A stretch of 33,930 bases of DNA from Candidatus Parcubacteria bacterium (GTDB taxonomy: Bacteria; Patescibacteriota; Patescibacteriia; Magasanikbacterales; UBA922), in contig JABGUG010000033.1 in assembly GCA_018646705.1 (NCBI GenBank), positions 1 to 33,930 on the forward strand. Reading direction: 5' to 3'. Position 1 is the first letter of the stretch; every line of letters starts with the position of its first letter. The notes under the pieces were generated by a model that had not been told where the DNA came from, did not search any database, and saw only the letters and a list, made by a program, of their open reading frames with translations. Below are positions 11,591-23,105 of this stretch, piece by piece. The position numbers were made by a program, and so were the translations under genes.

Positions 11591-11821
11591 GTATTGGTGA
11601 TTTACTAAGTTTTTATTAATCTTATTTAAAAATAGATGTAGGTAATGCTTTATTTGTATATAATATTGTATACAAAGATAAGGTCTATAGGGCTTTACAA
11701 ATAGAGAAGTATATGCTAATCTATACAATTATATATAAAAGTATATAGTAGTTTATACAAAGTAGTAACTTGTAATTTTTAATTAGTAGCTAGTTAGAAA
11801 TTATACTAGTCACACATTACA

Positions 11822-11856
11822 AGTAACTAGTTACTAGTTACTAGTTACTAACTAAC
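11822..11856. repeat. Heptamer array ACTAGTT (3 perfect units plus partials)
   Basis: AGTAACTAGTTACTAGTTACTAGTTACTAACTAAC. Confidence 0.9.
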
Positions 11857-11904
11857 AATAGGTGGATAATTTGTTTGTGTATAGCAAATTTCTGTGTTAT
11901 ACTT

Positions 11905-12031
11905 TTTGCCGTCATACGACTACTATAAACAGTAAATACGATGACTAAAATATAAGCCATACAGTAAAAACCCGTATCTTAATGCCAAATTCCTTTTGTT
12001 ACAGGGATCATTGTTCTACTACGGGCTTTTT
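11905..12031 (+). ncRNA. Candidate small RNA or sigma-gene leader ending in an intrinsic terminator
   Basis: TATACT at 11898-11903; rod: CCCGTA(11971-11976)/TACGGG(12020-12025), AATG(11981-11984)/CATT(12009-12012), ATTCC(11989-11993)/GGGAT(12004-12008), followed by CTTTTT; no ORF. Confidence 0.45.
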
Positions 12032-12043
12032 CTTGTTACTACA

Positions 12044-12087
12044 ACTAGTTACTAGTTACTAGTTACTAGCCACTAGTGTACTAGAAC
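12044..12087. repeat. Heptamer array ACTAGTT (3 perfect and 2 degenerate units)
   Basis: ACTAGTT ACTAGTT ACTAGTT ACTAGCC ACTAGTG followed by TACTAGAAC. Confidence 0.9.
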
Positions 12088-12091
12088 AGGT

Positions 12092-12116
12092 GTAACACTT
12101 TTTTATTTCTTACGTC
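12092..12116 (+). promoter_or_regulatory. Possible ECF-type promoter upstream of the sigma gene
   Basis: GTAAC ... CGTC with 16 nt between AAC (12094-12096) and CGTC (12113-12116); resembles the AAC-N16/17-CGTC ECF pattern. Confidence 0.35.
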
Positions 12117-12123
12117 TTCTATT

Positions 12124-12690
12124 ATGAAGGCCAAATATCGTGAAAAATTACTTGTACACAAGGTACAAGAAAATAAAGATAACGAGGCCTTCGGCGAACT
12201 CTATGATCTTTATATAGAAAAAATATATCGATTTGTATTTATAAAGCTTTCCAATAAAGAAGAGGCAGAGGATATAACGAGTGATGTCTTTCTAAAGACT
12301 TGGAATTATTTGATAGCGGATAAAAAGCAATTGGAAATAAAAAGTTTCAGTGGGCTTATATATCGCATAGCACGTAACACATTGGTAGACTTTTTCAGAC
12401 ATAAAAGTGTAAGACGTGAGTATGGTATTGAAACATTAGAAGATATAGGCGAAGATAGTGAATTGATAGAAAAGATCGATGTAAAACATGAAGTGGATAA
12501 TATAATGCATGTACTTAAGAAAATGAAACGTGAATATCAAGAAATTATTTTACTTAGATACATAGAAGAGTTGAGTATCGCAGAGATAGCAGAAATTTTA
12601 GAAAAAAGAAAAACAAATGTTCGTGTGACACTTCACCGTGCATTGAAAATTTTAAAAGAATTACTTTCTAAGGAGGCAAGTCGTTTATGA
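12124..12690 (+). CDS. ECF-type RNA polymerase sigma factor (sigma-70 family)
   Basis: Region 2: FGELYDLYIEKIYRFVFIKLSNKEEAEDITSDVFLKTW; region 4: YQEIILLRYIEELSIAEIAEILEKRKTNVRVTLHRALKILK. Confidence 0.95.
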   Translation: MKAKYREKLLVHKVQENKDNEAFGELYDLYIEKIYRFVFIKLSNKEEAEDITSDVFLKTWNYLIADKKQLEIKSFSGLIYRIARNTLVDFFRHKSVRREYGIETLEDIGEDSELIEKIDVKHEVDNIMHVLKKMKREYQEIILLRYIEELSIAEIAEILEKRKTNVRVTLHRALKILKELLSKEASRL

Positions 12691-14027
12691 GAGAACTCAA
12701 ACGACAATTAAAAGAAGTTCGAAAAAAGACAGGTCTGGTAAATCCAGATCGTTCTTGGGTTTTGGAAAATAAACAAAGACTTTTTGATCAGATTTCTAAT
12801 ACTACTGTTGTTGTTGAAAAAGAAAAGAAACAGAAAACTCCAGAAAATATGCAATATGCATGGCTTAGTTTTACACGTAAGGCAAAAGTATTTTTACCAC
12901 AAAACATGGCCACTTTGGCACGACCTCTTGCAACAGCAGTGCTTGCACTTATGCTTACGACTGGTGGTTGGGTTGCTAGCGCATATGCTGAACCAGGAGA
13001 TGTGTTCTGGGGAACAAAAGAAGCATTTGGTGCTGTTGTAGAGCAGGGCCGCCTTGCTTTTACGCCAGACAATGAAGAGGCTTCACTCCATCTTGAATTT
13101 GCAAGCAAGAGAGCAAAAATATTGCAACAAGTGGTAGATATAGAAAATATCGATCCAGTAAAAAAGAAAAAAATGGTACAAAAGGCTGTGGAAGATGTTG
13201 AGAAGAAGCTTGCGTCAGCAGACGAGAGCTTGCAAAATTCAACTCCTGAAAAAGCATCGGGAATGGTGAAAGACGTTTCTCTAAAGACAAAAGAAATTTC
13301 AAAAACTTTAAAAGAAACAGCAGATAAAGTTGAGGCCGAAGATAGTGAATTTGCAAAAGATATAAATAAAACAGCAACTGAATCAACAAAAAAGAGTCTT
13401 GAGATGGTTGAAACTGTGGTTCAAAAGAAAACAGAAGCACAGCTTGAAATATCTGAAGATGAAAAAAATGTTATTAAAGAGCATATCGATGGTGTGGTAG
13501 AGGATTTGAAAGAAGATGTTGAAGAGGCTCAAACTCAAGCAGAAGAATTGACTGAAGGAGTTGAATCAGGAATTATAAATGAACACGAGCTTGTCACTTC
13601 CACTGCAATTATGGTGGTAGAAGACGAGGTGGTTGAGGGTGATACATCAACAAGCACTTCTGAAAATTCTGAAATCGAAGTAATTGTAGAAGATTCTTTA
13701 TCAACAAGCACTCCTGAAATCGATAATAAAGATAATGAAGAAGCAGGGGATGCAAATGAAGGCCTTATGGAATCAGGTGAAAAAGTAAAAAATGTGGTTC
13801 AGTTGATCGACGATGCTGTTGATTCGTTTGATGGAGATGTGGAAGATGTGGATGTGCTCGTAGAAGAAAATCTGCTCGAAGCAATCCAAAAAACACAAGA
13901 ACTTAATGATTCTGTAGAAAAAGCGATTGAGGATGTTGGCAAAACTATTGAAGAGTTTTTACCACAAATTAGTAATAGTGGTTTGAGAGATGGTGAGACA
14001 CAAAAAGTAGAAAATATTGAAGAGTAA
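12687..14027 (+). CDS. DUF5667-like membrane protein, candidate anti-sigma/surface sensor
   Basis: 4-nt overlap with the sigma gene; cytoplasmic N-terminus, one hydrophobic segment, then AYAEPGDVFWGTKEAFGAVVEQGRLAFTPDNEEASLHLEFASKRAKIL (DUF5667-like); acidic Ser/Thr-rich C-terminal half. Confidence 0.75.
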   Translation: MRELKRQLKEVRKKTGLVNPDRSWVLENKQRLFDQISNTTVVVEKEKKQKTPENMQYAWLSFTRKAKVFLPQNMATLARPLATAVLALMLTTGGWVASAYAEPGDVFWGTKEAFGAVVEQGRLAFTPDNEEASLHLEFASKRAKILQQVVDIENIDPVKKKKMVQKAVEDVEKKLASADESLQNSTPEKASGMVKDVSLKTKEISKTLKETADKVEAEDSEFAKDINKTATESTKKSLEMVETVVQKKTEAQLEISEDEKNVIKEHIDGVVEDLKEDVEEAQTQAEELTEGVESGIINEHELVTSTAIMVVEDEVVEGDTSTSTSENSEIEVIVEDSLSTSTPEIDNKDNEEAGDANEGLMESGEKVKNVVQLIDDAVDSFDGDVEDVDVLVEENLLEAIQKTQELNDSVEKAIEDVGKTIEEFLPQISNSGLRDGETQKVENIEE

Positions 14028-14080
14028 TAAAATAAGTGATTATTCATTTTATTCATTAATTTAATTAAGTCCACGCCCTG

Positions 14081-14378
14081 TCACGTAAAATCGTCTACGC
14101 GATCACGTGATATACATACTGTACGGCCATGGTCTCTCAGGAGATTTTTCTGAGAGGTCAAATGCCATACAGTATCGCCACGTAAAATCGTTTATACGAT
14201 CACGTGGCAAGGGCAATATCTGACTGTGGCCAGTCGGATATCTCTCATCCCGGTTTATTATCGGGAGATCCCACTTGACCAAAAGGTCGGGTCTCGCAAG
14301 AGGCGTCAAAGTGGTTATTAATTCCGCCTTATTGCGTTGACGTTCTAGTTCTAAACTCGGAATGCGCATCGTAATAAG
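14081..14378 (+). promoter_or_regulatory. Highly structured 5' leader RNA of the S-layer-like gene
   Basis: Contiguous hairpins at 14081-14110, 14116-14175, 14177-14208, 14216-14241, 14245-14268, 14271-14314, then crossing helices 14321-14326/14358-14363 and 14328-14336/14370-14378; no terminator before the ATG at 14392. Confidence 0.75.
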
Positions 14379-14391
14379 ACAAAGGTTATTT

Positions 14392-17300
14392 ATGACAGAT
14401 GTATTTAAATTCGGTAAAAAACTCTTTACATTTTCTGTTGTTGCAGTAACAATCGTATGGAGCATGGGCCTTGCAGCTCTTGTCCCTGCTACTGCTTACG
14501 CTGAAACTTGTGTAGAGCTTGAAGCCGGAGATTTGTTTAAAGTTCCTGGTGGCGCTGCCGTTTATATGGTTACCGCTGACATGGACTCTATGTATTTCCC
14601 AAGTGAGGAAATATTTGAAAGTTGGAATCTCGATTTCGGTGACGTTACTGAGATTGCAAACACATGTTTTGACATGTACGAGCAAGCAACCCCAGCTGGC
14701 GTAAGTTATCGCCCTGGTACTTACTTACTCAAACGTGTTGAATCTCCTTCAATCTACGTTGTATTGTCTGGCAATCAACGTCAGAAGGTAGAAAGCCCAT
14801 CAGCTCTTGCAGCTCTTTACGGTGATAACTGGGGCGTACTTGTACGTGATATCCCATCATATTACTGGAGCAACTATGTAGCTGCTGAAGGCGAACTTAC
14901 TTCAGCTGTACCACACGATGGTATGATTGTACGTAAGACAGGTGAAACTACTGTTTATCAAGTCATGGACGGTATGCTATATGAGGTCACTGGCCTCGAA
15001 GCTGCTGGTATGATGGATTTCGGTGGTGTTAAAGGTTATGAAGTTGCAGATCTTGGTGGTCTTGCTGTTGCTGCTACTACAGTAACTGTTACAAGTATCT
15101 TCGAAGATCCTACACAACTTGGTAACATGCCTGATACTCCAATTGCTACAGGTGGTGATGTTATGGTTAGTTTGAGTGCAAATACTCCAGCTGCTGGTGA
15201 CATCCTATCTGATTCTTTAGCAAATGAATATCCACAAGGTAATATTTCTTTCACCACAGTAAACTTTAAAGCTGGTAGTGATGATGCTGTAGTTAAGACA
15301 GTTAAATTCACTCGTTCTGGCATTTCTAGTGATACTGATCTTGGTAGTTTGTATCTCTATGATGGTGATACAAAACTTGCTGAGTACAACAGTTTCAACA
15401 GCAAGGTAGTTACATTTACCAACAATAGTGGACTTTTCACTGTTCCTGCTGGCACAACTAAATCTATCACTCTTCGTGGTGATTTGGTACGTAGTGATCC
15501 TTCTGTGCTTTCTGGAAAGAAAATTGCATTTGGTATTGTTTCTAGTGATCATGTAGTAGTAGACGGTGGTGTTGTTACAGGTTCATTCCCTGCTACAGGT
15601 AATGTAATGACAACTACTGCTGTTGCTGATCTTGGTCATGTATATCTAACAAGTTATACAACATTCCCAGCTACTGTAAAAGCTGATGAAGCTAACAAAG
15701 AGTTCTGGAGAATGACTATGACTGCTGACGCACAAGACATGGAAGTTCGTTACCTCAAACTTACCATGGTAGGTACTATTGCTGTTACTGACGTTGCAAA
15801 CCTTAGACTTGAGTCTAATGGTGTGCAAGTTGGTAGTGCTATGGATCTTTCAAGTAACAATACTGTTATCTTTGATCTTGGTAGCGATCCTATCGCTATC
15901 CCAGCTGGTCAAAGTCGTGTTGTTGTCCTTCGTGGTGACATGATGGGCGGATCAGGACGTGCTATGAAATACAGTATCCAACGTATCTCAGATATTGTTG
16001 CATATGATATGGAATATCTTGTTCCTGTAAGCGTTGCAAAAGATGCATTAACTACAGCATTTAGTCTTATCCAACCTGAAACAGGCGATGGAACAAATGT
16101 TGACAGTGGTACATTGACCGTAGGTCTTGCTACTGAATCACCAACAGGAAATATTCCTGACGGCGGTACAAATGTAGAGTTTGCTAACTTTACATTCGAA
16201 GCTACAGGTGAAAATGTAAAAGTTGATAACCTTGTAGTTAGTTGTAATGGTAGTGATGCTACTGACTATGTAGACAATTTGAAACTTCTTTTGAATGGTA
16301 CACAGGTCGGTACAACTGACACCACACTTTTGTGTGATGACGCTGCTACAGATTCAACTACATTTACATTTGGTAACACATTTATAGTTCCTGCAGGTAC
16401 TCTTGCAAACTTAAAGGTTGTTGCTGATACTAATGATACTACTGTTGCTGCAGACGCTACATTTGCTATGGATCTTGTTGCTGGTTCTAGTAATGCACAA
16501 GGTCAAACAACTATGACTGCTCTTAGCACTACTGCTGAGACAGGTCGTACGCTAACAGTAAAATCAGGTGTTGTCTCTATTGCTGAGAATGCATCATTTG
16601 GTGATAAGACTTCTACAAATCCAACTGGTACAGTAAATGCAAAAGAAGTACAAGTTGCTTCATTTACTATTACTGCTGGATCTGCTGAGGCTGCAGATGT
16701 AACACAAATTCAGTTATCAGATAATACTACAGGTCAATCTGCTAATTATCAGAATTTGAAGATTAAAAATGGTGATACTCAGATTGGTTCAACTATTAAT
16801 AGTTTGAACTCTTCTGCAAGTACATACTCATTTACACCTGCTACTGCTATTCGTATCGAATCAGGTCAGCAGTATGTAGTAGATGTATATGCAGATATTA
16901 AGAGTAGTGCTACTGAAGCAGGTAATGTTGCTTACGCACCTTTTAACTACAATACAAATGCTATTACAGCTACAGGTGTATTGACAAATTCAAGTGCAAA
17001 CTCAAGTAACAGTGAAACTGCAATGCAAGAGCAATATATTGCTTCAAATGGTAACCTTACAGTTACTGTTGATGGTGATACTGCTAATGCAGCACAATTG
17101 GTACTTGGTTCATTACAGCAAGAGCTTGGAACATTCAAGCTTGAAGCTGATGCTGCTGAAGATATCAATGTAACTGATCTTGTAGTCTCTGTATCTACTA
17201 CTGATACTGAACAGGGTACACTTCAGAATTTGACAATGTATATTGATGGCGAAGCATATGGTCCAACTGTTAATCTTCCACTAGCTGTAAGTACAGGAAC

Positions 17301-18057
17301 TTACTGGAATGCAAGTTTCAGTGGTCTTGATCTCACAGTACCTAGAAGTAAAAATGTATTGATCACTATAAAAGCTGATCTAACTACATTTGACAATGGT
17401 GGTGATGCTGACGGTAGATTCCATGCTGCAATGGTATACAATATTGGTTCAGGAAGTGAACCTATTACAGCTACTGGTAATTCCTCAGGAGCAAGTATTA
17501 CAGGAGTAGACCTCTATCTTGGGGCTGCTACTGATGCTGATCAAGTAGGTAATGAAATGATTACTTACAAGACATTGCTTTCTGTTGCATTTGCCGCAGA
17601 TAGTCCATCAGGATCTGCTACTGGCGGAACTGATTCTATCGTTGCTAAATTCGTTGTAAGTAACTCAACTAATGTAGGAAGTTATTCTGCAACTCTTGAG
17701 AACTTCAATCTTACTATTGGTAACACAGGTGTTTCTGCTACTGCTGCACGTACATTGGATATCTATAAGAATTCAGTTAGTACAGCAAATTCAGTTGCAT
17801 CTACCGACTGGGGAACTGCTCACATGAACTTAGCTGACACAGTTATTTCTGAAGCAGGCTTTACAGACATTAGCATTTCTGCTGGTGGTTCTGTAACACT
17901 TATCGTAGAACTTGATACTAATGATGCAGGTTCTGATGATAAATTATCTTTCAACGTAAACGCAAGTGATGTACAATGGACCGATGGTTCTACAGCTGCG
18001 GCTGACATTACTTCAGTTGACGGATTGCCTCTTACTGCTAAGACTCTTACATACTAA
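14392..18057 (+). CDS. S-layer-like modular surface protein with signal peptide
   Basis: AAAGG 6 nt before ATG 14392 (track start 14362 lies inside the leader); signal peptide LFTFSVVAVTIVWSMGLAALVPATAYAE; about six diverged beta-sandwich modules of roughly 130-160 aa. Confidence 0.8.
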   Translation: MTDVFKFGKKLFTFSVVAVTIVWSMGLAALVPATAYAETCVELEAGDLFKVPGGAAVYMVTADMDSMYFPSEEIFESWNLDFGDVTEIANTCFDMYEQATPAGVSYRPGTYLLKRVESPSIYVVLSGNQRQKVESPSALAALYGDNWGVLVRDIPSYYWSNYVAAEGELTSAVPHDGMIVRKTGETTVYQVMDGMLYEVTGLEAAGMMDFGGVKGYEVADLGGLAVAATTVTVTSIFEDPTQLGNMPDTPIATGGDVMVSLSANTPAAGDILSDSLANEYPQGNISFTTVNFKAGSDDAVVKTVKFTRSGISSDTDLGSLYLYDGDTKLAEYNSFNSKVVTFTNNSGLFTVPAGTTKSITLRGDLVRSDPSVLSGKKIAFGIVSSDHVVVDGGVVTGSFPATGNVMTTTAVADLGHVYLTSYTTFPATVKADEANKEFWRMTMTADAQDMEVRYLKLTMVGTIAVTDVANLRLESNGVQVGSAMDLSSNNTVIFDLGSDPIAIPAGQSRVVVLRGDMMGGSGRAMKYSIQRISDIVAYDMEYLVPVSVAKDALTTAFSLIQPETGDGTNVDSGTLTVGLATESPTGNIPDGGTNVEFANFTFEATGENVKVDNLVVSCNGSDATDYVDNLKLLLNGTQVGTTDTTLLCDDAATDSTTFTFGNTFIVPAGTLANLKVVADTNDTTVAADATFAMDLVAGSSNAQGQTTMTALSTTAETGRTLTVKSGVVSIAENASFGDKTSTNPTGTVNAKEVQVASFTITAGSAEAADVTQIQLSDNTTGQSANYQNLKIKNGDTQIGSTINSLNSSASTYSFTPATAIRIESGQQYVVDVYADIKSSATEAGNVAYAPFNYNTNAITATGVLTNSSANSSNSETAMQEQYIASNGNLTVTVDGDTANAAQLVLGSLQQELGTFKLEADAAEDINVTDLVVSVSTTDTEQGTLQNLTMYIDGEAYGPTVNLPLAVSTGTYWNASFSGLDLTVPRSKNVLITIKADLTTFDNGGDADGRFHAAMVYNIGSGSEPITATGNSSGASITGVDLYLGAATDADQVGNEMITYKTLLSVAFAADSPSGSATGGTDSIVAKFVVSNSTNVGSYSATLENFNLTIGNTGVSATAARTLDIYKNSVSTANSVASTDWGTAHMNLADTVISEAGFTDISISAGGSVTLIVELDTNDAGSDDKLSFNVNASDVQWTDGSTAAADITSVDGLPLTAKTLTY

Positions 18058-18199: not shown

Positions 18200-20434
18200 A
18201 TGGCATTATATAAGATAGAAAAATTACCAAAATACATACGATTTGGCGTGTATATACTCATGACCTTTCCTTTGTGGTATACGTCGAGCACAATGTATCC
18301 AGCACATTTTGGCAAAACAGTGCTTTTTCAGATTGGTATTGAAATTCTTTTGATACTAATGTTTTATTATCTCTTGAAGAGTCATAAGCGTTTATTTCAT
18401 TTTAGACTGCTTGATTGGCTGATACTTGGTTTTTTCATTTCTCTTTTTATAGCGTCAGTTTTTGGGGTGGATTTTACGAGGAGTTTTTGGGGATATCAAT
18501 CTAGGGCGCAAGGTCTGTTTACATTACTGCATTTTTTTGGTCTCTATGTTCTTTTGCGTCAATTCTTTGGTAAACAAAAATATTGGAAGATTTTATTACA
18601 TTCCATTGTAGGAGTTGGAGTGCTTTCTTCACTAGTTGCATGGATTGGCCCATACATGGCTGTTTTTGATGGGGTGATTATAGAGAGTTCTAGGCTTAGT
18701 GGACTTGTGACTAACCCGATCTTCTTTGCTGCATATCTTATTATTCCTACTTTTTTTTCCTTCCTGCTTGCCATGCAAGAGAATGATAATAAATATAAGA
18801 GTTTGTTATTTTTTTCTGGATTAGTTCTTCTTGCTACATTAATGGCCACACAAGTTAGGGGAGTTTTAGTAGCACTTATTTTTTCTATTGTTATATTTTG
18901 GTTTGGCTATTTATTTATAGAGAAATCAAAAAAAATAAGAACTATAATGTTGTCAATTGGTATTGTTTTGGTTTGTCTGGGAGTAAGTTTGTATTTTTTC
19001 AATATATATTCAGACACACTTTACAACAATGCACCTAAAGTTTCTAGGATTTTGGATATATCACTCAACACCGGGACAGGAAGGACTCGTTTGATGGCAT
19101 GGGATATTGCATATGAGGGTTTCAAGGATAGGCCTGTTTTTGGGTGGGGGCCAGAAAATTACCAAAATATTTTTGATATTTATTATAATCCTGATTTTTT
19201 GGAATTTTCTCTTGAGGAGACTCTCTGGGACAAACCACATAATTATGTAATGGAGTTATTATCAACTGGTGGAATTGTTACCACTGTGTTTTATTTAGCC
19301 ATTTTAATTTCTTTACTTGGATATTTAATTAGTTTAATTAAAAAGTCTTCCAGTAAAAATCAAAAGATAATATATTTAATTATTATTACAGCTATACTAT
19401 TCTATCTTGTTCAAAATCTTTTTGGCATAGAAACATCGTACTCTTATCAATTATGGTTTGTGTTAATGGCTTATATAATGTTTGAATATATTTCCAAAAA
19501 AGAGCAAGAAGTGACTGACAAGACATATTTTTATAAAAAAAGTGCGCCAATATTTTTAATTATTTTTTTTATTATTACACCCATCTTTTTGTTTCAAAAT
19601 ATAAATATGTACAGAGCGTCTATATATATGGGTAATGCACGAGATGCTGCAGTAGTCGGTGATGCAAATTTGTGGGTCACGCAAGCTAAGTCAGTTTTAG
19701 ATGTGCCCACTCCATTTTTATGGGAGCAGGGTATATTTTTGGTTCAAGATATTTCCTTATTAAGCGAACAAAGGGTTTTAAGTAAGGATATCCTACAAGA
19801 AGTTGAAGATTCTTTAGTTAATATATTTTTAAGTTATCTAAATAGTGTTCCAGATTCATTTAGGATTAATTTATTTTTTGGTGAGTTTTATGCATTTATG
19901 GGCGAGTATGTAGATCTTTCTTATATGGAAAAATCTGACGAATATATGATAAAGGCACAAAGTATAAGCCCACTAAATCAGCGTGTATCATTTTTGTTAT
20001 CAAAAAATTATTTGTTAGAAGGTGAGATCAATGAGGCTTTGAGTATTTTGTATGAACTTGTTTTAACGTACCCCACTTCTTTTGAAGTACATTGGTTTTA
20101 TGGTCTAATGTTGGTTGAGGCAGGTGATCTTGATAATGGGATTATAGAATTAGAAAAGGGGTCTGGGTTTGGTTTTAGACATTCAGGTAATATTGAATTT
20201 ATGATAGATTTGTATGCTAAACAAGGGGATTATGATAAGATAATTCCGTTGTACGAGAATCTTATAAGTGAAGATATAAATAATGGATCTCTATATGCAC
20301 GCTTGGCTGCGACGTACGCCGTTTTAGGAGACACAAATAATATGATTGAATCCATTAATAGCGCGGTTGAAAAAGATCCAAGTCTGCAGACGGAAGCTAA
20401 AATATTTTTAGAACAACAAGGTATTTCATTTTAA
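18200..20434 (+). CDS. O-antigen ligase/Wzy-like membrane protein with C-terminal TPR-like region
   Basis: Polytopic N-terminus, TRLMAWDIAYEGFKDRPVFGWGPENYQ motif, C-terminal helical repeats. Confidence 0.85.
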   Translation: MALYKIEKLPKYIRFGVYILMTFPLWYTSSTMYPAHFGKTVLFQIGIEILLILMFYYLLKSHKRLFHFRLLDWLILGFFISLFIASVFGVDFTRSFWGYQSRAQGLFTLLHFFGLYVLLRQFFGKQKYWKILLHSIVGVGVLSSLVAWIGPYMAVFDGVIIESSRLSGLVTNPIFFAAYLIIPTFFSFLLAMQENDNKYKSLLFFSGLVLLATLMATQVRGVLVALIFSIVIFWFGYLFIEKSKKIRTIMLSIGIVLVCLGVSLYFFNIYSDTLYNNAPKVSRILDISLNTGTGRTRLMAWDIAYEGFKDRPVFGWGPENYQNIFDIYYNPDFLEFSLEETLWDKPHNYVMELLSTGGIVTTVFYLAILISLLGYLISLIKKSSSKNQKIIYLIIITAILFYLVQNLFGIETSYSYQLWFVLMAYIMFEYISKKEQEVTDKTYFYKKSAPIFLIIFFIITPIFLFQNINMYRASIYMGNARDAAVVGDANLWVTQAKSVLDVPTPFLWEQGIFLVQDISLLSEQRVLSKDILQEVEDSLVNIFLSYLNSVPDSFRINLFFGEFYAFMGEYVDLSYMEKSDEYMIKAQSISPLNQRVSFLLSKNYLLEGEINEALSILYELVLTYPTSFEVHWFYGLMLVEAGDLDNGIIELEKGSGFGFRHSGNIEFMIDLYAKQGDYDKIIPLYENLISEDINNGSLYARLAATYAVLGDTNNMIESINSAVEKDPSLQTEAKIFLEQQGISF

Positions 20435-21077: not shown

Positions 21078-23105
21078 ATGCGTGAAAAATACTTAGTTTA
21101 CACAATAAAATTTTTAGCGATTCTTTCTTTCTTCACTCCGCTTCTTGTACCGTATAAACATTTTATATTTCCTTTTATAGTTCCAAAGATTGTGGTTTTG
21201 AGATCATTAATTTTATTGATGCTTGGAATATATATATTGTTGTTGGTGACTAATGTGGAGAAATACAAATTAAAATTAAATCCGGTCAATATTGTTGTTG
21301 GTTTGTTTTTGGTTAGTTTTGGTGTTTCTACATTTATTGGTCCAGATTGGTATAGGAGTATGTGGGATAATCACGAAAGAATGCTTGGGTTTTTTACTGT
21401 TTTTCATTATATATTGTATTATTTTATTCTCAGTTCAGTTTTCAAAGAGTGGAAGGACTGGAGATTTCTTATGCGTGTATTTTTGACTGCAGGAAGCATT
21501 GTAATGTTAATAGGATTATGGCAAAAATTTGTTAATCCAGAGGCCCTGCTCAATCGTAATGCTGTGAGAGTCTCTGCAACACTAGGTAATGCCATTTATA
21601 TGAGTGGTTATGGATTATTTTTGTCTTTTATTGGGGTTTTGTTAGGTCTAAAAGAAAAGAAAAAAAGTTTTTGGCAGTGGTATAGTTTTCTAGGTGCATT
21701 CTTAGGTTTCGCAGGAATTTTTTTAGGCGGAACAAGAGGAACTTTTTTGGGACTTATGGCAGGTTTGTTGGTTGTAGTGATAGGCTATATTTTGATGCTT
21801 AAGGATCATGCACGTCTTCGTAAGTATCTTATAGGTTTGATAATTGCAGGCATTTTAGTCTTAGGCATTTCTTGGGTATATCGTGATACAGCTTTTATAA
21901 ATAAGACACCAGTTGTGGGTCGTTTAGTAAATATATCTTTAAGTTCTGGTAGTGCTGAGACACGTCTTATGGCGTGGGAAATAGCTGTTGACGCGTGGAA
22001 AGAAAAACCTATAATTGGTTGGGGACCGAATAATTATTATTATGCATTTAATAAATACTATAGATCTGAGTTTCTCGAACATGGGTTTCATGAAACCTGG
22101 TTTGATAATGCACATAGTGTAATATTTAATACACTGGCTGTACAAGGTATTTTTGGTATATCATTTTATTTTGGTATGTTTCTCATTCCTATTTATTTAT
22201 TATGGAGAGATCGTCGTAAACAAATTCACATTGTGATTTTTTCATCTGCATTTTTGGTAGGTCATTTTGTACACAATGCATTTGTTTTTGAAAATCCAAC
22301 ATCCTATCTTTATTTTTTCTTTTTTCTTGCGTTTGTAAATCACACACTCACAATGAGCGATGTTTCTGATACAAAAGATGGCGGGTCCGGTAAAAAAGTA
22401 GGACTTCCTATTATGGGTATAGTTATGTTTTTTATACTATTGTTTGTATATACAACAAATATAAATCCGGCTCGCGCTAACATGAGAAGTTTTGATGCAA
22501 TTCAAAATCTTTCACGTGGTATGGATCCTGTAAAACTTTTTAATAATGCTGTGGAAATTCCCACACCACATATTGATGACATTAGAAATGATTTTGGAAG
22601 GATGGGTTCTCAATTGATTGTAGAGCATATTAGAAAAGATGATTTTGATTCAGTAAAAGATACATACGAATTGATTTATAGTGAATTGAAGAAGAATATA
22701 GAATTGCATCCAATGGATATTCGTGTACATATACAATTATCTCAGTTAGTGCAATTTGTAGCTGACGCAACTAAAAATGCTACCTTACTTTTTGAAGCAG
22801 AAGCCTTACTAGAAGACGCTCATGCATTTTCACCAAAACGACAGCAAGTAGAGTATATACTTGCGCAAATTAAGCTTAGGCTTGGAAAAGGTCAAGAGGC
22901 TGTAGAAATATTACGAACAAGTGTTGATAATAACTATAAGATAGCAGAAGGTTGGTGGAGGCTTGCGTCATTTCACTATACACTCGGTCAAAAAGATGTA
23001 GCTAGAGATGTAGTAAATGAAGCACGTGAAAAAGGAGTAGTCTTTACAGGGCAAGGTAAGAAGATCGTAGATCAAATACTACTTGGAGTCACGAGTACGA
23101 AATAA
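21078..23105 (+). CDS. O-antigen ligase/Wzy-like membrane protein with C-terminal TPR-like region (paralog of 18200-20434)
   Basis: TRLMAWEIAVDAWKEKPIIGWGPNNYYYAFNKYY matches the paralog; LGGTRGTFLGLMAGL; helical-repeat tail. Confidence 0.85.
   Translation: MREKYLVYTIKFLAILSFFTPLLVPYKHFIFPFIVPKIVVLRSLILLMLGIYILLLVTNVEKYKLKLNPVNIVVGLFLVSFGVSTFIGPDWYRSMWDNHERMLGFFTVFHYILYYFILSSVFKEWKDWRFLMRVFLTAGSIVMLIGLWQKFVNPEALLNRNAVRVSATLGNAIYMSGYGLFLSFIGVLLGLKEKKKSFWQWYSFLGAFLGFAGIFLGGTRGTFLGLMAGLLVVVIGYILMLKDHARLRKYLIGLIIAGILVLGISWVYRDTAFINKTPVVGRLVNISLSSGSAETRLMAWEIAVDAWKEKPIIGWGPNNYYYAFNKYYRSEFLEHGFHETWFDNAHSVIFNTLAVQGIFGISFYFGMFLIPIYLLWRDRRKQIHIVIFSSAFLVGHFVHNAFVFENPTSYLYFFFFLAFVNHTLTMSDVSDTKDGGSGKKVGLPIMGIVMFFILLFVYTTNINPARANMRSFDAIQNLSRGMDPVKLFNNAVEIPTPHIDDIRNDFGRMGSQLIVEHIRKDDFDSVKDTYELIYSELKKNIELHPMDIRVHIQLSQLVQFVADATKNATLLFEAEALLEDAHAFSPKRQQVEYILAQIKLRLGKGQEAVEILRTSVDNNYKIAEGWWRLASFHYTLGQKDVARDVVNEAREKGVVFTGQGKKIVDQILLGVTSTK

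Follow-up and report, generated by a model that had tools for sequence, protein, structure and literature searches.

A conserved structured RNA directly upstream of the main S-layer-like gene in Magasanikbacteria, with a 3′ core found in related families

The main S-layer-like gene in a 33,930-nucleotide stretch of DNA (the window) from a 1.04 Mb draft genome is preceded by a leader of about 300 nt that is a genuine RNA structure under selection, not chance pairing. Comparison with relatives from Candidatus Magasanikbacteria and other Patescibacteria places it in an RNA family absent from Rfam 15: its general kind is known (a cis-acting leader or intercistronic RNA) and its setting is unusual. 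The leader probably sets the amount of coat protein made. As a single-copy RNA kept in many families of one class and tied to the surface-coat gene and to a sigma factor / DUF5667 pair, it offers a concrete, testable handle on how the outer surface is controlled in reduced, probably host-dependent cells, and it would help annotators to recognise the main surface protein of these genomes.

Architecture of the leader

A reading made from the sequence alone had described a heavily paired leader of roughly 300 nt in front of the S-layer-like gene. That leader is real and larger than described: the region 14040-14400 folds to -130.1 kcal/mol, compared with -84.7 +/- 5.0 kcal/mol for shuffled versions (z -9.1), and none of 100 dinucleotide shuffles folded as well. 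Its parts, and the gene that follows, are listed below with the basis for each in brackets.

14075-14378, + strand: whole structured leader or intercistronic RNA (fold z -9.1; kept within the family)
14075-14079 with 14210-14214, + strand: P1, closing helix GCCCT/AGGGC of a multibranch junction (sequence, fold)
14080-14111, + strand: extra hairpin GTCACGTAAAATCG...CGATCACGTGAT, a near-copy of 14177-14208 (sequence, fold)
14117-14174, + strand: hairpin PA, with arms TACTGTACGGC (14117-14127) and GCCATACAGTA (14164-14174) and a variable apex (family leaders)
14177-14208, + strand: H2, hairpin of the junction (fold)
14216-14241, + strand: H3, lineage-specific hairpin of 11 pairs with a TGGC loop (sequence, fold, relatives)
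14271-14314, + strand: H4, outer stem 14271-14279/14305-14314 and inner hairpin 14291-14304, enclosing the class-wide bulge (covariation; other families)
14282-14290, + strand: bulge, AAAGGUCGG here and AAAGGUCGA in the consensus; no other sequence in the element is as well conserved (alignments)
14328-14378, + strand: H5, outer stem of 12 pairs (14328-14339/14367-14378), internal loop AC (14340-14341) / GCG (14364-14366) and inner hairpin (covariation)
14379-14391, + strand: AU-rich spacer with AAAGG, from H5 to the start codon (relatives)
14392-18057, + strand: S-layer-like gene of 1221 aa with a signal-like N-terminus, predicted to be nearly all beta with arrays of Ig-like domains (sequence, model)

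Several details of the earlier description hold. The compound hairpin at 14116-14175 (a stem of ATACTGTA/TACAGTAT, GGC-AT/AT-GCC and GGTCTCTCAG/CTGAGAGGTC), the 11-bp hairpin with its TGGC loop at 14216-14241 and the start site AAAGG-N6-ATG, with its ATG at 14392, all lie where they had been placed, and no terminator-like site was found on the + strand within the leader, as had been stated. Two points need correction. The last helix contains a further in-frame ATG, at 14362, upstream of the start; only the closest relative shares it, and conservation favours 14392 as the start codon. The crossing helices that the earlier reading proposed can indeed be drawn in the window (CGTCAA at 14304-14309 with TTGACG at about 14338-14343), but by eye they are not kept in relatives (for example L018, L026 and L036), where the nested helices 14271-14314 and 14328-14378 are conserved instead. 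The most conserved part of the leader is this 3′ domain (14271-14378), not the long compound hairpin. A pseudoknot of three pairs between GGUC in the bulge and GAC in H5, at positions that hardly vary, is possible.

The 5′ part also contains a pair of near-identical hairpins (CACGTAAAATCGT..ACGATCACGTG), one on each side of PA at 14080-14111 and 14177-14208. The extra hairpin at 14080-14111 is retained only in the closest relative, and that genome has just one hairpin of the pair, which suggests a recent duplication or conversion.

Conservation as RNA

In relatives, too, the sequence before the main S-layer-like gene folds strongly, with similarly low energies, and within the family these leaders share one order of elements: a closing helix around PA, then H4, H5 and the start codon. 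Equivalents of P1 in many relatives pair GCYCTTT with AAAGGGC or CUCCCUG with CAGGGGA around PA, and the position of H2 is taken by a hairpin of variable sequence. PA itself occurs in 35 of 37 family leaders in the form TACTGTRYGGC ... GCCATACAGTA, with arms 27 to 142 nt apart; the 3′ arm is near-invariant and the 5′ arm carries G-U pairs and compensatory changes. Most family leaders have the AC/GCG loop of H5, and in most relatives the end of H5 lies 13-21 nt from the start codon, in a spacer that holds a Shine-Dalgarno-like sequence in only 13 of 36 leaders.

Covariation was assessed in two alignments. In a structure-blind alignment of 18 leaders, covering 31 pairs of the 3′ domain, standard pairs filled 77.3% of cells, against 60.5% after shuffling and 38-48% when the pairing was slid, and 28 of the 31 pairs had changed on both sides. 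A 38-leader alignment, which was made with the model and is biased towards the structure, gave 83.1% against 58.4% shuffled, with double changes in 31/31 pairs; across its 38 sequences all 12 pairs of the H5 outer stem covary. A tree-aware null, in which substitutions were replayed along the tree, reached 47 +/- 3% for the 18-leader and 51 +/- 3% for the 38-leader alignment, with maxima of 55% and 64% (400 simulations each), and the observed values were never reached. Significance of single pairs (10 pairs at E<0.05) comes from the fitted alignment only. When 34 diverged sequences were aligned with MAFFT, blind to structure, and every pair of columns was tested without guidance in the manner of R-scape, no pair was significant, probably because alignment drift cut the power of the test; the guided tests are those relied on here. 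Pairing in excess of both the shuffles and the tree-aware null is the reason for calling the structure real. The sequence-only reading had made its idea depend on conserved pairing upstream of orthologous S-layer genes; such pairing was looked for and is present, and the idea survives.

Distribution across genomes and families

Leaders were fetched through homologues of the S-layer-like protein in 44 of 46 family genomes. Of the 46 family genomes (Magasanikbacteria), 33 contain a single site, and no more, for a model built from 18 of these leaders (R1), which also matches many leaders outside its training set; three R1 sites from outside the fetched set (G004, G003 and G038) directly precede S-layer-like genes or gene fragments. 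Nearly all Magasanikbacteria members carry one copy of the element, immediately in front of their main S-layer-like gene, and shorter S-layer-like paralogues have no such leader upstream. The family would be missed by sequence comparison alone: a DNA similarity search found matches in no more than 6 of 97 related genomes. Rfam 15 gave no match at gathering score in the window, in 20 family loci or in 20 other-family loci, and at E<=10 the window returned chance-level matches on the opposite strand only; the failure of the earlier reading to recognise a known family is borne out. Its suggestion of a new structured RNA class before an S-layer gene is strongly supported by the lack of an Rfam match, the covariation, the single copy and the fixed gene.

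Searched at E<=0.01, R1 has no site in 42 genomes of the order's other families. This model does not see the 3′ core outside the family. H4 was detected with a scripted stem-bulge-stem search, which stands in place of a class-wide H4 covariance model: the sequence-only alignment available for one (A5) is out of register on its 3′ side. A score of 20 was reached by 33 of 36 family leaders and 22 of 30 other-family leaders. Among the controls it was reached by 5 of 792 shuffles and 4 of 88 stretches of coding sequence, and by none of 12 regions upstream of paralogues. H4 with AAAGGUCGA or a close variant precedes homologues in families f4, f6 and f9 and in most of f11-f18; it is weaker in f2, and in f5 it was found with a second model (R2). 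Altogether the H4 core stands before the orthologue in at least ten further families, including the named Uhrbacteria and Buchananbacteria, whose assignment to a single class rests on kinship labels from the genome search. This class we take to be the one usually named ABY1. Other classes of the phylum supplied only a few homologues, and H4 was not found in these, a weak negative because several of the loci start inside the gene.

PA is family-specific. The f4 leaders (L146-L164) carry a different hairpin in its stead, about 150-280 nt before the ATG, with a pyrimidine-rich 5′ arm and a conserved 3′ arm of the GGGAGAGAGAAA type; here again the 3′ arm seems to be the better conserved one.

Gene neighbourhood and transcription

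The earlier reading had not included the site of the RNA between genes of a sigma factor / DUF5667 / S-layer set, the lack of a recognisable promoter next to it, or its class-wide invariant motifs. The features upstream of the leader are as follows.

11895-11903, + strand: extended -10 element TGTTATACT ahead of the sigma gene (sigma upstream regions)
11956-11966, + strand: second copy of GCCATACAGTA, the 11-mer of the PA 3′ arm, with a terminator-like hairpin behind it (to 12034; three closest genomes)
12092-12118, + strand: GTAAC-N16-CGTCTT, an ECF-type promoter motif upstream of the sigma gene (sigma upstream regions compared with leaders)
12124-12690, + strand: ECF-type sigma factor (Pfam / NCBIfam)
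12687-14027, + strand: 446-aa membrane protein, in the place of DUF5667 (anti-sigma-like) proteins (TM segment, PGD..W..K motif)

The order ECF sigma factor, membrane DUF5667 protein, RNA and S-layer gene is kept, with the sigma gene at the same place in 20/20 relatives examined. The 446-aa protein has no Pfam match in the window, and its counterparts score above the DUF5667 cut-off in 5 of 6 relatives. With a short N-terminus, a single TM segment and a long outer part, it looks like an anti-sigma factor by its layout. At most other-family loci the upstream gene encodes roughly 320-440 aa.

Promoter motifs are concentrated before the sigma gene. The ECF motif GTAAC-N-CGTC precedes the sigma start in 19 of 21 genomes, with a one-base variant in the other two, and precedes the RNA in 0/35 leaders; the extended -10 occurs in 21/21 sigma upstream regions versus 9/35 leaders. 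In detail, GTGTAACACTTT-N-CGTCTTCT ends a few bases from the sigma ATG (12092-12123 in the window) and is near-invariant in the 21 genomes. So close to the start codon, the motif suggests that the sigma message may be leaderless, and the sigma gene may be autoregulated. Strong promoter motifs before the sigma gene and not before the RNA indicate that the RNA probably lies between genes of a single operon, and the simplest reading of these motifs would have the sigma, DUF5667 and S-layer genes co-transcribed with the RNA between them. In several genomes the RNA begins only about 7-25 nt after the stop codon of the preceding gene. A promoter of unrecognised type just before the RNA is possible, as the absence of motifs is weak evidence in organisms whose promoters are little known. 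Direct driving of the S-layer leader by the ECF sigma factor was considered and ruled out by the lack of the ECF motif in all 35 leaders.

Other observations concern the same region. Elsewhere in the genome the ECF motif has one match only (G000:C32:47061-47088, L144), about 240 nt upstream of an ABC-transporter-like gene, which is a candidate for a second place in the sigma regulon. Repeat units ACTAGTT / TACTAGT at 11800-11855 and 12045-12075 flank the region upstream of the sigma gene. Five relatives (L014, L022, L023, L031 and L033) have a long, near-perfect hairpin without a T-run after the stop codon of the upstream gene, which could be a processing site. The second copy of GCCATACAGTA sits between the extended -10 and the sigma gene and is also present in the two closest relatives; the stretch 11956-12034 is possibly a small RNA or an attenuator that shares the PA 3′ arm. 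A widespread GCCAUACAGUA small RNA was ruled out: outside the three genomes, extra copies occur near the control frequency.

The S-layer-like protein has no Pfam domain and no sequence relative in the PDB. A structural model of residues 1-1076 (mean pLDDT 70.5) is nearly all beta, and Foldseek matches it, at low TM-scores, to multi-domain surface and adhesion proteins, including the Ig-like domains of PrgB. A large, exported protein predicted to consist of beta domains, with one main copy per genome across the class, is compatible with an S-layer identity and does not prove it. Directly downstream are two Wzy_C (O-antigen ligase-like) proteins with TPR repeats (18200-20434 and 21078-23105), possibly for surface glycosylation.

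Proposed function and alternatives

Control of mRNA stability or translation, the role suggested by the sequence-only reading, is still the likeliest function, and one that we infer. In the form tentatively favoured here, to which we give slightly less than an even chance, a cis-acting RNA shields the 5′ end of the S-layer message and presents its AU-rich start site, so that S-layer output exceeds that of its regulators. With no terminator and an end 13-21 nt before the start codon, transcription should run into the S-layer gene, and the leader should belong to its message. Most of that message would come from transcripts that read through the sigma / DUF5667 operon, or else from a promoter of atypical kind, with trimming afterwards. 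The genome encodes RNase J and RNase Y, so that a processed or primary 5′ end would need protection, and the compact fold would shield the S-layer segment from both. The presence of these nucleases, the short distance to the start codon and the missing terminator are what favour a protective, start-presenting cis element. H5 would keep the AU-rich start region available to ribosomes; counting against this, predicted folds leave only about half of that region unpaired (mean 0.54). The S-layer protein could in this way be made in large excess over its regulators, its output uncoupled from the sigma and DUF5667 genes. The invariant AAAGGUCGA bulge and the AC/GCG loop would be contacts (tertiary, ribosomal or protein) that give the fold its specificity.

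The main rival is a strong one, though less probable: a translation switch that responds to a small ligand (metabolite or ion) or to a protein, be it the S-layer protein, the DUF5667 protein or a ribosomal protein. The binder would sit at the AAAGGUCGA bulge and the AC/GCG loop, and H5, next to the start codon, would be opened or locked accordingly. Invariant unpaired motifs inside covarying helices are the usual mark of an aptamer or protein site, the distance from H5 to the start codon is near-fixed, and the sigma and DUF5667 neighbours suggest regulated surface synthesis. Against it, no alternative helix that is both conserved and mutually exclusive with the main fold was found, relatives do not keep the TTGACG/CGTCAA pairing seen in the window, and the element is tied to one kind of gene, as most metabolite riboswitches are not. 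The broadest version has similar, less than even odds: a new class-wide cis RNA whose AAAGGUCGA bulge would detect either a small ligand or, by way of a protein partner, the state of the envelope, and which would set S-layer synthesis, forming one conserved circuit for the cell coat with the ECF sigma factor and the DUF5667 protein. A plain 5′ stabiliser of the ompA or slpA type, in which pairing matters and sequence does not, would suit the very stable fold, the large exported surface-type protein and the freely varying apices and extra hairpins. It is nevertheless improbable, as the sequence itself is kept: AAAGGUCGA throughout the class, the AC/GCG loop and the GCCAUACAGUA arm within the family. 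Invariant unpaired sequence across a class is not needed by a plain stabiliser and indicates specific recognition. To our knowledge the ompA and papA stem-loops have no conserved bulge and no relation to this leader in sequence or architecture.

The remaining alternatives shift the role of the RNA away from the S-layer message. Upstream of the sigma gene, at a distance of about 160 nt, a copy of GCCAUACAGUA stands in front of terminator-like hairpins; it could make the leader the target of a small RNA that pairs with the PA 5′ arm, or one of two sites competing for a PA binder. The 11-mer is exact in two genomes and has one change in a third, at the same place in diverging surroundings, but this holds for the three closest genomes only; elsewhere extra 11-mers are about as common as a reversed control, and the class-wide H4 would be left unexplained, which makes the proposal very improbable. 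Still less probable is a mainly free non-coding RNA, cut from the transcript and acting elsewhere: the length and complexity are like those of free structured RNAs, but the element always stands directly before the same gene, lacks a 3′ terminator and keeps a tight spacing to the start codon. As for a DNA-level feature (operator repeats or hairpin clutter) with no role as RNA, the PA arms do form an inverted repeat, yet the range of their spacing (27 to 142 nt) and the compensatory changes in several helices make such a feature scarcely credible.

Comparison with known systems

Among open-licence papers, none was found that links S-layers to structured RNAs, or these lineages to noncoding RNA. 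One of the closest counterparts is the slpA gene of L. acidophilus, for which a structured, untranslated leader was proposed to protect the mRNA (Boot et al., 1996, as quoted in PMC6482533). As far as that quotation describes it, slpA has its own promoter and one large stem-loop, whereas the RNA described here has about 300 nt, several helices and invariant motifs, is class-wide and lies between genes. The 5′ stem-loops of E. coli ompA and papA, as cited in PMC3997798, are alike in placing a 5′ structure ahead of the part of the message that encodes an abundant surface protein.

For other operons, selective RNA processing and stabilisation is an established mechanism (PMC4423207, PMC10311766). 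The cip-cel operon of Clostridium cellulolyticum, where intercistronic structures make the genes of one operon for a surface complex unequally expressed, would be a parallel to the present case (PMC4423207, PMC10311766). Its structures are mainly simple stem-loops that guard 3′ ends; here a complex fold, with putative processing, lies 5′ of the gene that would be favoured. Finally, unlike the orphan cis-regulatory motifs and riboswitch candidates, the leader matches no Rfam 15 family, but it resembles them in its design: covarying helices around invariant unpaired nucleotides, attached to one class of gene.
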